The position numbers and the translations under genes are program-made. The notes below the pieces were generated by a model, which did not search any database, had not been told where the DNA came from, and saw nothing but the letters and a program-made list of their open reading frames with translations. Shown in pieces: positions 24,370 to 55,452 of a stretch of DNA of 64,000 nt (its first letter is position 1; every line of letters starts with the position of its first letter). Source of the stretch: Rhodothermia bacterium (GTDB lineage: Bacteria > Bacteroidota > Rhodothermia > Balneolales > Balneolaceae). Location of the stretch: positions 1 to 64,000 of the forward strand of contig JAUICM010000005.1 of NCBI GenBank assembly GCA_030427885.1, written 5' to 3'.

Positions 24370-26043
24370 ATGAGAAAACAAATAACCGGGATGCTGATAT
24401 TCTTATCGGTATCAACCATAGCATTAGGTCAGCCTTTTAAGGGAGATAAACTATTCGAAGGTCAGCTGGCACCATTACTAGAGGGAATGGGCTTACACGA
24501 TTTCGAAATAAGTACCGAAAATGATCTGGCCTATATATTTTTCAATCAGGCGATCGCCCTCACATATGGCTTCAATCATCTGGAAGCAGAACGGTCATAC
24601 AAGCAGGTAGCGCTACTCGATAGTACATCTGCAATGGCCTATTGGGGTCAGGCGTTGGTACTTGGTCCGAATATCAATGCACCAATGGAAGCTTCGTCAG
24701 TGAAACCAGCTTATGATGCTATCCAAAAAGCTATAAGCTTGAAAAGATTTGCTTCTGCTAAAGAGCAGGATATGATCAATGCCTTAGCAAAACGATACTC
24801 TGAGGATGAGACACAGCAAGATCGTGTGGAACTGGATCATGCTTATGCGGAAGCCATGCGGGAAGTAGTGGCAAAATATCCGGATGACCCACATGCACGT
24901 ACAATGCTCGCAGAAGCATTGATGGTAATTCATTCATGGGATTATTGGCACGGAGACGGACGTCCGAAAGAATGGACTCCGGAGATCCTTAACGTGTTGG
25001 AAAAAGGACTCGAGGACCACCCAAGACATACGGGGCTGATCCATTATTACATTCATGCTGTAGAAGCTTCAAAACGTCCAGACAGAGCGTTGGGTAGTGC
25101 TGATATTCTGCGTGATCTGGTACCAGGTGCCGGACATCTGGTACACATGCCGTCACATATTTATATCCGAACCGGCCGATATCAGGATGGAGTGGAAGCA
25201 AATGAGAAGGCGATCATAGTTGATAGTGAGTATATCACTCAGTGTCGCCAGCAAGGGATCTATCCGGTAGCCTATGTACCTCATAACCGTCATTTCCTGT
25301 GGGCGATGGCAACCATGCAGGGAAATAGTAAAAAAGCGATCATGGCGGCCAATCATATGGCTGATCATATTGATCAACAACTAATGAGAGAGCCGGGTTA
25401 CGGGACACTTCAGCATTACTGGGTGACCCCGATTTATGCATATGTGCGTTTTGGTAAATGGAATGAGATCATGAACCTCCCAAAACCTGATTCCGACCTG
25501 AAATATCCTCTCGCCATATGGCATTATGCACGCGGAGTGGCTTTCACCGGAATGGGAGAATTGGAGAAAGCTAAAGCTGAACTGGCTGCACTGAAGAGGA
25601 TCTCAGAAGATGACGAACTTAAAAATATTACCGTTTGGGAGATCAACGATGCTCACAGCGTTGTTAAAATAGCCAGTCTGGCCCTTGAAGGAGAGTTGGA
25701 AGGAAAATCAGGTAATTATGCCAGGTCGGTAAAAGTGTTCAATTCTGCCATAGAGCTGGAAGACAATCTGAATTATAACGAACCATCCGATTGGCACTAT
25801 CCGATCAGGCAATCGCTTGGCGCGATCTATCTCGAAGCAGGAGAATTCGATAAAGCAGAACAGGTATACAAAGAAGATCTGCTGACTTTCCCGGAAAACG
25901 GTTGGTCGCTTTATGGCCTGCATCAGGCTCTTGAAAAACAAGGAAAGCATACGGAAGCAGAATCAGTGAGAGTACGCTTTGAGAAAGCATGGCAATATGC
26001 TGATATCGATTTGAATGCTTCCAGAGTGTTAAGCATGAACTAA
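24370..26043 (+). CDS. Secreted tetratricopeptide-repeat protein
   Basis: This 557-residue exported protein has a signal peptide (1-20, ending IALGQ). TPR-like helical pairs run throughout, for example FNQAIALTYGFNHLEAERSY and AYWGQALVLGPN near the N-terminus and AIYLEAGEFDKAEQVYKEDL near the C-terminus. Two conserved-looking histidine segments, HYYIHAVEAS and HMPSHIYIRTG (about 220-265), give a family look seen in other exported TPR proteins of unknown role. It has its own 209-bp upstream region and ends in a strong terminator. Confidence 0.8.
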   Translation: MRKQITGMLIFLSVSTIALGQPFKGDKLFEGQLAPLLEGMGLHDFEISTENDLAYIFFNQAIALTYGFNHLEAERSYKQVALLDSTSAMAYWGQALVLGPNINAPMEASSVKPAYDAIQKAISLKRFASAKEQDMINALAKRYSEDETQQDRVELDHAYAEAMREVVAKYPDDPHARTMLAEALMVIHSWDYWHGDGRPKEWTPEILNVLEKGLEDHPRHTGLIHYYIHAVEASKRPDRALGSADILRDLVPGAGHLVHMPSHIYIRTGRYQDGVEANEKAIIVDSEYITQCRQQGIYPVAYVPHNRHFLWAMATMQGNSKKAIMAANHMADHIDQQLMREPGYGTLQHYWVTPIYAYVRFGKWNEIMNLPKPDSDLKYPLAIWHYARGVAFTGMGELEKAKAELAALKRISEDDELKNITVWEINDAHSVVKIASLALEGELEGKSGNYARSVKVFNSAIELEDNLNYNEPSDWHYPIRQSLGAIYLEAGEFDKAEQVYKEDLLTFPENGWSLYGLHQALEKQGKHTEAESVRVRFEKAWQYADIDLNASRVLSMN

Positions 26044-26088: not shown

Positions 26089-26121
26089 AACCGCGGTACT
26101 GCCCAGTATCGCGGTTTTTTT
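26089..26121 (+). terminator. Rho-independent terminator after the TPR gene
   Basis: A stem of 12 pairs, one of them G-T (AACCGCGGTACT at 26089-26100 with AGTATCGCGGTT at 26105-26116), a GCCC loop and a seven-T run at 26115-26121. It ends the plus-strand transcript 46 nt after the stop at 26043. Confidence 0.9.
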
Positions 26122-26162
26122 ATCTATTCATTTTTGAAATTCTGTACCCAATCAAACCATTT

Positions 26163-26186
26163 GTTCTTTTGGGCCGCCAAAAGAAC
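26163..26186. repeat. Perfect 10-bp hairpin flanking the foldback element
   Basis: GTTCTTTTGG (26163-26172) is the exact reverse complement of CCAAAAGAAC (26177-26186), with a 4-nt loop. It is separated by 2 nt from the long foldback at 26189-26332 and probably belongs to the same element. Confidence 0.6.
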
Positions 26187-26188
26187 CA

Positions 26189-26332
26189 AAACTCCCGGCT
26201 ATGATTGCTTCCGGGCATTTAATCTTCCGAATTCTACGCAAAACCAAATGTTCCACAAGTGGGACAGGTTTTTCGCTTCGAATTCAAGAAATGATTAAAT
26301 GCTACTCCTCCACCAATCAAAGGCCGGAGTTT
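26189..26332. repeat. 144-nt imperfect foldback (long hairpin) in a convergent intergenic region
   Basis: Six collinear complementary blocks nest inside each other. They are 26189-26195 with 26326-26332 (7 bp), 26202-26207 with 26314-26319 (6 bp), 26215-26224 with 26293-26302 (10 bp), 26229-26234 with 26280-26285 (6 bp), 26240-26245 with 26267-26272 (6 bp), and the tip 26249-26256 with 26259-26266 (8 bp, one G-T). Together they pair about 43 bp. It fills most of the 317-nt gap between the TPR gene and the minus-strand gene ending at 26361. I see no open reading frame of note in it. It may be a structured RNA or a miniature foldback repeat. Confidence 0.7.
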
Positions 26333-26360
26333 AAATCATTAAAAGGGTAGCTAAGAATCT

Positions 26361-26996
26361 TCATTTATTAAATGGGGTAAGAAAGTAGAATCCTAATTTA
26401 TGGGTAGCAGCACTCAATTGATTGCCAAGAAGAATTGAAATAGAGAGGGTTTCAATCCATTGAAATCGAAATAAAAAGATTGAGAGTAAAACAACAATGC
26501 CCACTAAAGTTGTGGCTATCAATATCTCGAAATATTCAGCATTCCTGTCACTTACTGAGTAAAGTTCTAAAGAATCATAGTCATCAAGCTTATACATGAT
26601 GATTATGTATAGATAATTTAGAAGCGGAAATAATAAGGAGACTTCATCATCATTTATGGCATAGAATAATGCGATCATTGCCACAATAAGTTGTAAAGAA
26701 AGAGCAAAATGCAGCATGAATCCTTTGGCAAAAACAGTTTTCTTTTTCTTGGAAAAGGCGTGGTAGATTGAAAATAAAATACCTATAAGAATTCCCGCGT
26801 AGATAAAGTAAAACCTTGAGTCTGTACGTGATAAATATTCTAAATCAGAAATTAGATTATCATCAAAAAAAAGTATCATAATAAAAGACATGCTCATGAC
26901 ATACAGAGCAATTTCGTCGTATACCTTGCCGAAGATTTTACTAGTAATCCATTTGAAAAAACTTTTTATCTCTTCAAGTTCTTCTTTGATAGTCAT
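26361..26996 (-). CDS. Multi-pass membrane protein, unknown function
   Basis: The 211-residue product has about six hydrophobic segments, near residues 29-45, 62-76, 88-110, 120-138, 158-174 and 178-192. The N-terminus is short and charged (KEELEEIKSFFKWITSKIFGK). I recognise no family. Its start overlaps the stop of the purine nucleoside phosphorylase gene by 4 nt (ATGA), so it is probably translated from the same mRNA. Confidence 0.7.
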   Translation of the reverse strand: MTIKEELEEIKSFFKWITSKIFGKVYDEIALYVMSMSFIMILFFDDNLISDLEYLSRTDSRFYFIYAGILIGILFSIYHAFSKKKKTVFAKGFMLHFALSLQLIVAMIALFYAINDDEVSLLFPLLNYLYIIIMYKLDDYDSLELYSVSDRNAEYFEILIATTLVGIVVLLSIFLFRFQWIETLSISILLGNQLSAATHKLGFYFLTPFNK

Positions 26997-49178: not shown

Positions 49179-49556
49179 ATGAAAAAAATAGTATCAACAC
49201 CAAAAGCCCCGGCTGCTATTGGCCCATATAGTCAGGCAACTATTCATAATGGACTCGTGTATTGTTCCGGACAGATAGCACTGGATCCGGAGACCATGCA
49301 AATTGTTGGAGATGATGCGGCTTCTCAGGCTAAGCAGGTAATGAAAAATTTAGGAGCGGTGCTCGCTGAGGCGGGAACTGACTTCTCAAAAGTATTGAAA
49401 TGTTCAATTTTTCTGGATGATATGGGTGACTTCGGAGAAGTGAATGAGGTGTACGGGAGTTATTTCCAGTCAGAGCCTCCGGCACGGGAAACGGTAGCAG
49501 TCGAGACTCTTCCTAAAAGCGTACTCGTAGAAATAAGCTGTATTGCTTATATCTGA
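49179..49556 (+). CDS. ridA: RidA family reactive-intermediate deaminase
   Basis: This 125-residue YjgF/YER057c/UK114-family protein hydrolyses reactive enamine/imine intermediates released by PLP enzymes. Motifs are APAAIGPYSQA, YCSGQIALDP and the C-terminal PARETVAVETLPK with the conserved Arg, then VEISCIAYI. I use the ATG at 49179; a TTG at 49152 would add nine residues not found in the family. It converges with the M23 gene, stop to stop. A link to the PLP enzyme MetB nearby is possible. Confidence 0.93.
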   Translation: MKKIVSTPKAPAAIGPYSQATIHNGLVYCSGQIALDPETMQIVGDDAASQAKQVMKNLGAVLAEAGTDFSKVLKCSIFLDDMGDFGEVNEVYGSYFQSEPPARETVAVETLPKSVLVEISCIAYI

Positions 49557-49557
49557 T

Positions 49558-51387
49558 CTACTTTGTGTAGGTTTTCTGAGTTTTGTTACCCGCCCTGTCA
49601 AATACGGTTATCTCAATGGTATTTGTTTTGGCGGGTTTAAACTCGGGGTTATAGTAGATCAAAAGGTCTTCTTCGTTGTCAAACTCAACGATTCCCTTCT
49701 TGCCATTTACAATAATCTCGGCACTTTTATAGTCGATTCCGGATAAGGAGTCAAAAGCATAAATATAGATCAGGGTTTTTCCATAACTGGTTTGAACGAT
49801 TCTGGGTTCGTCAACTTCAGGAGCGTCAACATCATCAAGTATCAGGAATTCTCCAAGATCTGATGGAAAACCATAAACGGTTCTTCCTCGTAGTATTGAA
49901 TCCACATATCTGATGCGATTCCTGAGCCGGTCGAGCCTGTACATCCGGTAATGATGACCTTTTTTAAAATGGTCGCCAAGATAATAGCTGATCATAATAT
50001 CCTTCCTGGCAGGAATCATACCGGGCTGAATATTTATATATGGCGAATCATCATGAAAGGAATGGTAGGATATAGTTGTAAGCGTATCAAAAAAAGCCTT
50101 TTCAGGAAACCGAACCGTTAGTTTTTGGTCAGGGGTAGTGAATTTATACGGCTTATCTGGAGTAAAACGAGCTATGAAATAAGTAGTGTCTCCGGCAAAT
50201 TGAACCTTTTGATTCAGCGATTCAGACCAGGTTCTGCCAAAAGAATAATTACGAAGATCAATGGTTAGCTCATCTTTTGTTGATGCCCAATTATTCGACC
50301 AATACCATTCACGAATAGGAGAGTATGGGAAGTGGTCGCTATGGGTCGCATTTTTGTTTTCTGAATATTCATCAATCTGAACTGAAGCTGCTGTTTCATT
50401 ACCGAAATAGTCTCTGGCTACTATAGTCAGATTTATAACAGAATCACTAGGATTAATTATAGTCTTGGGATCAACTTTCAGATAAAATGGATTATCAGGA
50501 CCGTCTTTTTTGAATAAGGTCTGAAAAGTTCTCCGGTGATCTCCAAAAGCTGTGAGTCGGTCATTCAGCATCAGGTCGTCTTCATCAAAAGAAAACTCAT
50601 TCAGCCGCTCATGGAACAGAGTATCCGTTTTCGAAAGCAGAAGTAATTCATACACGGCATATTTATTGGAGACTTCATCGGCACCGTCATACACATTCAC
50701 TGAAAGTCCAACCGGACCTGAAGCCTGAATTGGCCCGAACTCGGAAATTCCGTTTTTAACATTTCCGGGGTAAAATACTTTTGGGAAATAGGAACCCTCA
50801 ATAAGTGTTTTCTGAGATAAGGGAACAGCCATGACAGAGCTGATTAACGGAGCAATGTTGTCCTCAATACTCAGGTTGGTTCTCAAAGCATTAAATGGAG
50901 TCTCATCTGGATAACGGGTCTCAAAGTGCAAGTGGGGAGGGCCTACTCCGGTGGAACCTGTAAAGCCGATCACATCACCCTGCTTTACCTGAATTTGAAG
51001 AGAATCAATAGTTTGATCAATTTCAAAAGAATAGTCAGTCATCCTGACTGAATCTATGTAAGATTGAAGTTTATCATTGAAGCGCTGAAGATGAGCATAT
51101 ACAGTAAAAGTACTGTCAGGATGCCGCAGATAGATCACCTTACCATAGCCCTTTACCGAGATCGCTAAGCGATACACATATCCATCTTTAGCTGCATATA
51201 CTTTATAGCCTTCGCGACCCCAGGTTTTTATATCCAGTCCGGAATGAAAGTGAGCAGCCCGTGTTTCGCCAAAAGTAGAAGTAAGATGATTACTGGCATT
51301 GGTAGGCCACAAATAACCTGAAGATTGAGCATATCCTGATTGAGCAAAGAGTAGATAAACAGAGAATAGTATCGCGGATCGGATCAC
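49558..51387 (-). CDS. Secreted M23-family metallopeptidase
   Basis: This 609-residue exported protein has a signal peptide (1-20). An N-terminal LytM/M23 domain has zinc ligands His48 and Asp52 in HSGLD and PHLHFE near 158-163. A long C-terminal beta-rich region (about 200-609) contains Ig-like strands such as DRAGNKTQKTYTK at the end. M23 enzymes cut peptidoglycan cross-bridges. The large beta region is unusual in size and may anchor or regulate the enzyme. It overlaps the FAH-family gene by 4 nt. Confidence 0.88.
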   Translation of the reverse strand: MIRSAILFSVYLLFAQSGYAQSSGYLWPTNASNHLTSTFGETRAAHFHSGLDIKTWGREGYKVYAAKDGYVYRLAISVKGYGKVIYLRHPDSTFTVYAHLQRFNDKLQSYIDSVRMTDYSFEIDQTIDSLQIQVKQGDVIGFTGSTGVGPPHLHFETRYPDETPFNALRTNLSIEDNIAPLISSVMAVPLSQKTLIEGSYFPKVFYPGNVKNGISEFGPIQASGPVGLSVNVYDGADEVSNKYAVYELLLLSKTDTLFHERLNEFSFDEDDLMLNDRLTAFGDHRRTFQTLFKKDGPDNPFYLKVDPKTIINPSDSVINLTIVARDYFGNETAASVQIDEYSENKNATHSDHFPYSPIREWYWSNNWASTKDELTIDLRNYSFGRTWSESLNQKVQFAGDTTYFIARFTPDKPYKFTTPDQKLTVRFPEKAFFDTLTTISYHSFHDDSPYINIQPGMIPARKDIMISYYLGDHFKKGHHYRMYRLDRLRNRIRYVDSILRGRTVYGFPSDLGEFLILDDVDAPEVDEPRIVQTSYGKTLIYIYAFDSLSGIDYKSAEIIVNGKKGIVEFDNEEDLLIYYNPEFKPAKTNTIEITVFDRAGNKTQKTYTK

Positions 51388-54223: not shown

Positions 54224-54736
54224 ATGCGCATTATCTCAGTTATGATTCTTTTTTTGATAGTTCCGGTCATCGCAATGGCTCAACAGCAGCAACAAAGCCG
54301 CTGTAAAACTCAACCACAGTATCGGCAATTTGATTTCTGGATTGGTGAGTGGGAAGTCAAGAATCCCAATGACCAGGTGGTTGGAGCCAGTAAGATTGAA
54401 CTTACTGTAGGAGATTGTGTGATCCTTGAAAACTGGACCGGTGGTGGCGGTTATTCAGGCAAAAGCCTCAACTACTACAGTTTCTTTGATCAGAAATGGC
54501 ATCAGCACTGGATTGGCAGTGGTGGTATTCCGATAGATTTTTCTGGTAATTATGATTCTGAAGCAAAAGCAATGAAATATACCGGGAAGGGAATTGCACA
54601 GGGAGGAGTGGAAGTAGAATACAAACTCACCTTTCATCACTTATCAGATGATCATGTACGACAGCATTGGGAACAATCATCTGATGGAGGAGAAACATGG
54701 ACAACCATTTTTGATGGCCACTACCGCCGCAAATAA
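54224..54736 (+). CDS. Secreted DUF1579-like protein
   Basis: This 170-residue protein has a signal peptide (1-19, ending AMAQ). Its core resembles DUF1579: FDFWIGEWEV, then WTGGGGYSGKSLNYYSFFDQKWHQHWI, with tryptophans spaced along a lipocalin-like beta fold. No function is established. It follows the AraC-type regulator and is closed by a long hairpin at 54737-54780. Confidence 0.78.
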   Translation: MRIISVMILFLIVPVIAMAQQQQQSRCKTQPQYRQFDFWIGEWEVKNPNDQVVGASKIELTVGDCVILENWTGGGGYSGKSLNYYSFFDQKWHQHWIGSGGIPIDFSGNYDSEAKAMKYTGKGIAQGGVEVEYKLTFHHLSDDHVRQHWEQSSDGGETWTTIFDGHYRRK

Positions 54737-54780
54737 AACAACCCGTAGAGACACAAGATTTTCTGTCTCTACGGGTTGTT
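54737..54780. terminator. 17-bp perfect palindromic hairpin between convergent genes
   Basis: AACAACCCGTAGAGACA (54737-54753) is the exact reverse complement of 54764-54780, with a 10-nt loop. It lies between the convergent stops at 54736 and 54796 and can terminate in both directions. On the minus side it is followed by a T-rich stretch. The GTAGAGAC/GTCTCTAC core resembles palindromes I recall from intergenic repeats of Bacteroidota and cyanobacteria. Confidence 0.8.
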
Positions 54781-54795
54781 CGAAATATCAAAGCC

Positions 54796-55452
54796 TCAGG
54801 CTACTTTAGCTGGTGCTCGCTGAAAGCCCTGACGGTTCACATGGCCAATGTATTTACCAATGATGCGCACTTCTTCAAACACATCCGGTGAGACAAAGAT
54901 ATCATCATAATCTTCATTGGCGGCTTCCAGCCTCAGGCCATTATCATCCCAGAAGATCTTTTTCAGAGTAGTTTCTCTATTATAAAGAACGGCACCAATT
55001 TCTCCATTCTTTAATTCTGTATCCATAAGCAGTACGAAGTCACCATCATAAATATTAGCGTCTTTCATGCTGAAACCAGAAACCCGAAGTGCGAAAAGCT
55101 TATCAAGATTGGGGAACAGAGTGGATAAGGTTATCGAACCCAGGTCTGCTTCTACTGCTTCCTGGAGATATCCTGCGGCTATAAGTCCACGAATTGGAAT
55201 TCCGTCTTCTTCAGTTTCGTTACCCAGCATGCTTCGTTTATCGGATGGGAGATCATATTCCTCATCATTTCTTTTAACGAGGTATCCCTTTTTAAGTAAA
55301 GCCTGAATATTTTGTGTAACACTGTTGGGTGATCTGTATCCGAAATGATCGGCTATTTCCCGGTAGGTTGGCCATACATCGTATTCTTTTTTGTAATCAA
55401 CGATATATGAAAAAAATTCCTGCTGTTTTCGGGTTAAATGCGCATTATCCAT
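54796..55452 (-). CDS. lexA: LexA-type SOS repressor
   Basis: This 218-residue repressor has an N-terminal winged HTH (1-70, TRKQQEFFSYIVDYKKEYDVWPTYREIA), a cleavage site in IAAGYLQE (Ala93-Gly94) and a serine-lysine protease domain with Ser128 (GFSMKDANIYDGD) and Lys164 (TTLKKIF). The Ser-Lys spacing of 36 is close to E. coli LexA. I start at the ATG at 55452; the frame to 55605 would add 51 unrelated residues. It is divergent from the HEAT-cyclophilin gene with only 49 nt between starts. Confidence 0.92.
   Translation of the reverse strand: MDNAHLTRKQQEFFSYIVDYKKEYDVWPTYREIADHFGYRSPNSVTQNIQALLKKGYLVKRNDEEYDLPSDKRSMLGNETEEDGIPIRGLIAAGYLQEAVEADLGSITLSTLFPNLDKLFALRVSGFSMKDANIYDGDFVLLMDTELKNGEIGAVLYNRETTLKKIFWDDNGLRLEAANEDYDDIFVSPDVFEEVRIIGKYIGHVNRQGFQRAPAKVA

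Follow-up and report, generated by a model that had tools for sequence, protein, structure and literature searches.

A widespread family of interspersed repeats in Bacteroidota with a conserved, strand-specific fold

The intergenic element at ~26160-26340 of the window (the whole stretch analysed here, 64,000 nucleotides of contig JAUICM010000005.1 from a Rhodothermia bacterium) belongs to a family of non-autonomous interspersed repeats, ~180-220 nt long, found in many Bacteroidota and in a few distant phyla. What is conserved in this family is structure rather than sequence, the fold being held through near-complete sequence change, and we conclude that selection acts on the fold of one strand, the minus strand in window terms. 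Judging from sequence comparisons, the reading we put first, at about even confidence, is that the transcribed strand of these repeats forms a structured 3'-UTR or intercistronic RNA.

Location and fold of the window copy

The element is housed in the gap between a plus-strand TPR gene (24370-26043) and a minus-strand gene for a 211-aa protein (26361-26996), which converge upon it, and it contains no ORF worth calling; on both counts an earlier note on this DNA was right. A perfect 10-bp hairpin (26163-26172 / 26177-26186, loop GCCG) stands directly ahead of a long collinear foldback, which runs from 26193-26199 out to 26323-26329 by way of the middle blocks GCATTTAATC/GATTAAATGC (26215-26224/26293-26302), GAATTC/GAATTC and CAAAACC/GGTTTT to the innermost palindromic tip, CCAC-AA-GTGG. 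Sequence and fold thus bear out the two structures that the earlier note described, and the hairpin does lie ahead of the foldback, but the two are not separate: by homology they are a single element, with a unit of ~26160-26340. Pairwise homology of the window copy to non-syntenic copies stops near 26161 and 26336. On the folding strand the foldback rod comes first, followed by a U-rich linker, with the hairpin last. The features, including scores from the covariance models R1 and R3 introduced below, are as follows.

26160 to 26340, minus strand: whole element, 5' end at 26340 and 3' end at 26160 (R1, 192.3 bits; R3, 164.6 bits, E 4e-45)
26323 to 26327, minus strand: closing stem P1, 5' strand (CCGGC on minus), pairing with 26195-26199, from RNAalifold and the CM structure
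26195 to 26199, minus strand: closing stem P1, 3' strand (GCCGG on minus), from RNAalifold and the CM structure
26293 to 26302, minus strand: 10-bp middle helix, 5' strand (GCATTTAATC on minus), with compensatory variants
26215 to 26224, minus strand: 10-bp middle helix, 3' strand, with compensatory variants
26238 to 26274, minus strand: apical arm, the CAAAACC/GGTTTT helix and the tight tip CCAC-AA-GTGG
26163 to 26186, minus strand: 3'-terminal hairpin, reading GTTCTTTTGG-CGGC-CCAAAAGAAC on minus; no other sequence is as well conserved across the family
26361 to 26996, minus strand: upstream gene on the folding strand, encoding the 211-aa protein, which has no Pfam match
26089 to 26121, plus strand: intrinsic terminator of the convergent TPR gene, outside the element (ACCGCG...CGCGGT, then a T run)

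When positions 26130-26350 are folded as RNA, the plus strand gives -69.3 kcal/mol (z -6.0) and the minus strand -73.3 kcal/mol (z -4.8), with 0 of 200 shuffles as good in either case, and after GC correction the fold of the element ranks first among 1,596 180-nt segments of the window. The next strongest folds lie at 49521-49700 and 54601-54900. Rfam 15 has no gathering-score match for the element or for nine of its relatives; its sole match in the window is 5S rRNA, the gene for which occupies positions 13-120.

Copies, covariation and folding strand

The earlier note's suggestion of a miniature foldback repeat is supported by BLAST and covariance model searches, which find the element repeated and dispersed both in the host genome and in others of its family, at unrelated, non-syntenic sites with unrelated flanks. 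A minus-strand covariance model built from seven close copies (R1) places the element in 49 of 92 host-family genomes, with up to 25 copies in one, and returns members in distant phyla at E-values of 1e-9 to 1e-12, part of this score being selected for because those loci were first chosen by their hairpin. A second model, built from 65 members (R3), matches 65 of the 394 genomes of the phylum, in 29 genera, with E-values down to 4e-18 outside the host family and no match at 1e-5 in the remaining 329; the similar sequences between Bacteroidota genes that the earlier note tentatively mentioned agree with this wide occurrence. The covariance models also find the element in Levybacteria/Woykebacteria, Gastranaerophilales and Delongbacteria, where R3 counts 13 copies in one Levybacteria genome of 0.9 Mb and eight in a Delongbacteria genome. 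A scan of the same 394 genomes for the hairpin motif returned only the host family (Balneolaceae by named records), with zero matches for the reversed-pattern control, while in named records the motif occurs in Balneola, Gracilimonas, Levybacteria, Woykebacteria, Gastranaerophilales, Delongbacteria and one planctomycete MAG. R3 has no match at 1e-5 in the planctomycete genome, and the exact motif is absent from viral contigs, giving no sign of phage carriage. At loci L002, L005, L022, L133, L361 and L376, other short palindromes (e.g. CCTGAGCTTCCTCAGG, GACTACGTCGAATC) are inserted in the loop of the terminal hairpin.

Pairing is maintained throughout this divergence. Among eight close copies, double compensatory changes occur in 19 of 50 pairs and kept one-sided changes in none. 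An alignment of 63 copies shows two-sided changes in 47 of 52 pairs, with 93.8% of cells pairing (40-47% with slid partners) and a covariation score of 0.587 (slid partners, 0.06-0.10; shuffles, 0.15). Fitting of this alignment to the structure raises the counts, though scarcely by so much. Unfitted MAFFT alignments of three groups still give two-sided changes in 19 of 50-53, 31 of 44 and 23 of 46 pairs. To illustrate, the P1 helix is 98.1% paired with two-sided changes in all five of its pairs, the middle helix occurs as CATTTAATC, CATATAATC and CATTCAATC, each with a matching, compensatory partner, and the lower stem of the terminal hairpin shows G-C/C-G/A-U and U-A/A-U base-pair swaps among copies. 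The earlier note would have given up its proposal for a single genomic copy lacking compensatory changes; the opposite was found.

Folding-energy z-scores alone show no difference between the strands, and for this reason wobble pairs were counted and models were built from each strand. The ratio GU:AC is 128:40 on the alignment from the minus-strand model and still 42:100 on that from a plus-strand model, although this model, built in the same way, would be expected to favour GU on plus. Most copies left out of model building score higher with R1 than with R2. In an unfitted alignment of one Bacteroidota genus, g64, the better fit is again that of the folding strand (-39.7 vs -33.3), with GU:AC at 17:6 on pairs found from both strands, and an unfitted alignment of 29 Balneolaceae copies leans weakly to minus (16:11). 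Strand-specific covarying structure is what is expected of a functional RNA, and the structured RNA proposed in the earlier note as the other possibility is supported by it.

Gene context and mobility

Genus g64, which we take to resemble Chryseobacterium, has a co-directional gene upstream of the element at 27 of 27 determinable loci, usually ending within ~50 nt, although the 27 are not independent, several of them being a single site sampled in more than one species. Downstream genes are co-directional in 18 cases and opposed in 10. The clearest recurrence between g64 species is the argC-argD site, occupied in seven species, where the six alignable copies have a mean likeness of 79% to one another vs 69% to copies elsewhere. 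The element also forms tandem arrays with a period of ~310 nt, and one array is flanked by a PAPS-reductase-domain (cysD-like) gene on one side and an EF-Tu-type GTPase (cysN-like) gene on the other. No neighbouring ORF recurs across copies. The window copy, which begins ~20 nt past the stop codon of the co-directional 211-aa gene, matches the g64 pattern; a homolog of that gene was found in one relative only, and the element is absent from the stretch of that relative examined. At g64 loci L354-L383, the loop of the terminal hairpin, TTTCAAGA(C), is in most copies complementary to GTCTTGAA just upstream, a pairing that is mutually exclusive with the hairpin, as in a switch.

In Balneolaceae, the genes on either side of the element are oriented without preference (++ 25, -- 24, convergent 18, divergent 13). 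This counts against an mRNA element, which would not predict it, and makes a serious rival of a single-stranded DNA mobile element of the REP/REPIN or IS200/IS605-derived kind, in which folded ssDNA would be recognised by an HUH (Y1) transposase or similar and the fold kept only for copying. We regard this explanation as possible but doubtful. The random orientation in Balneolaceae and the non-syntenic copies fit it, as do the recent amplification seen in one genome (G449, ~17 near-identical copies) and the ~300 nt at one G449 site that are missing at the same site of its relative G237, a junction too diverged for a duplication to be read. Dispersed intergenic copies, often in inverted doublets, are a REP-type trait that the family shares, and Balneola has BIME-like head-to-head pairs; REPINs too keep a hairpin, a variable interior and compensatory changes, according to PMC3116915. 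Against it stands the lack of a cognate Y1 transposase gene: among 32 Y1 loci in nine Balneolaceae genomes, the flanks carry other hairpins, and that of the element lies near just one, ~950 nt off. Nor is there a GTAG/GGAG-type tetranucleotide directly 5' of the palindrome, where the foot reads TTTTG-GTTC or TTTTG-CTAC; GGGAG occurs ~6 nt upstream of the hairpin in Balneolaceae types only, not in g64. Replication-strand bias is not significant (30 of 46, p ~0.05), and sense-only placement in g64 would not be expected. An association with RAYT/Y1 genes was rejected, as Y1 loci carry other REPs. The RAYT-like Y1 genes of Balneolaceae (L026, L027, L161-L190) have REP hairpins of their own (GCGAAGACCTGAAGGACTTCGC, GTTCCGTAGCTCAGCTGCGGAAC and others). 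Integron attC sites were also considered; paired RYYYAAC/GTTRRRY boxes were looked for by eye at the element ends, and none were seen. No autonomous copy, with an ORF inserted inside the element, was found.

In Balneola, many copies are carried within a larger unit that is bounded by terminal inverted repeats TGTAGATGTTAG...CTAACATCTACA and probably flanked by a 5-bp target duplication, and the G449 copies share their outer flanks too. Both observations favour a passenger of ordinary inverted-repeat MITEs moved by DDE transposases, its fold having no function of its own. This is improbable, in that the outer sequences vary between genomes, the window copy and those of G033/G005 have neither these outer sequences nor visible terminal inverted repeats or target-site duplication (homology in all of them ends at the stem base and hairpin), and the core covariation and strand bias need selection on the fold. 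Within the same Balneola unit there is a second, oppositely oriented foldback with a CTTTTGCTACTTTTGTATCAAGACAAAAGTAG hairpin, seen ~45 nt upstream, head to head, at L065, L104, L112, L129 and L135. Another dispersed hairpin, GATCCTGAAACAAGTTCAGGATGACG, lies 25-60 nt from many G033, G449 and Balneola copies, and it is apparently into this hairpin that the Balneola carrier unit inserts.

An elaborate transcription terminator of the minus-strand gene is very improbable: the closeness to the stop codon and the stable hairpin at the end would suit one, but, unlike the G+C-rich hairpin and U run of an intrinsic terminator, its hairpin is followed on the folding strand by A-rich sequence with no T run, g64 copies lie inside operons between co-directional genes (argC-argD), and its 50 covarying pairs are, as the earlier note remarked of the structure, more than a terminator needs. 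The TPR gene has an ordinary terminator of its own, so that the element is not needed there.

Interpretation and relation to known systems

The reading as a structured 3'-UTR or intercistronic RNA starts from what the data directly support, namely the repeat family, its strand-specific covarying fold, the non-synteny of its copies, their presence or absence between species and the sense placement in g64. RNA is indicated by strand-specific pairing and sense-only g64 placement, a mobile repeat by recent amplification and the lack of orientation bias in Balneolaceae; these fit together if the folded transcript of a mobile repeat is tolerated or useful after genes. The working form would be an RNA in which a long rod, whose internal motifs are conserved, is joined by a short U-rich linker (CUUUUGG or UUUUGG) to a terminal CUUUUG..CAAAAG hairpin. 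It would be co-transcribed with the gene whose 3' end precedes it, here the 211-aa gene, and would become the 3' UTR or intercistronic region of that mRNA, where its structure may shape the 3' end through processing or through protection from 3'-to-5' decay. Copies would spread as DNA via a putative trans-acting enzyme. Transcription, the effect on the mRNA and the mode of spread are inferred; a function on mRNA ends is suggested by likeness to REP elements, which occur in 3' regions. No conserved promoter or terminator is seen as part of the unit, which weighs against this reading. More tentatively, and rather unlikely, the family could represent a class of mobile structured RNA elements, unrecognised so far and crossing phyla, which would spread within genomes as SINEs do and which in at least one genus would be inserted or retained sense-only just after genes and act on mRNA 3' ends; insertion itself might then depend on the transcript.

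To our knowledge, much work has been done on structured interspersed repeats of Pseudomonadota and Bacillota, and hardly any on those of Bacteroidota or candidate phyla. The present family, with its defined folding strand, its recurrence at orthologous operon sites and its absence from Rfam, offers a concrete way into mRNA 3'-end biology in Bacteroidota and into the spread of such repeats from phylum to phylum, and the covariance models make the element directly findable.

Searches of the open-access literature by sequence and by concept returned no description of this repeat family, and none is given in the available passages on REP, REPIN, RAYT, BRE and FopS; the family is apparently unnamed so far. 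FopS, like the present family, is a multicopy structured RNA family in Bacteroidota, described in PMC11697453 as paralogous Bacteroides sRNAs that act on susC mRNAs and possess both an intrinsic terminator hairpin and promoters of their own; these promoters and the terminator set it apart from the present element. BRE, the Betaproteobacterial repeat element, is likewise an intergenic structured repeat with tandem copies, some of them transcribed, although by description, the only basis of comparison, it is ~90 bp, GC-rich and betaproteobacterial (PMC3110155). REP/BIME/REPIN-RAYT systems are also intergenic, multicopy, palindromic and non-autonomous, with compensatory changes and inverted pairs, but REPs are 20-50-nt palindromes, whereas the present element has 180-220 nt with a complex interior and, in g64, sense-only placement.

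The bcr1 element of the Bacillus cereus group is a ~150-nt interspersed repeat whose RNA folds on one strand. Its mobile-element characteristics are named in a title cited in PMC3110155. By description rather than sequence, bcr1 and the present family are alike as interspersed repeats with mobile-element characteristics and one-strand folding; as far as is known, they differ in sequence and host, and the present family crosses phyla.
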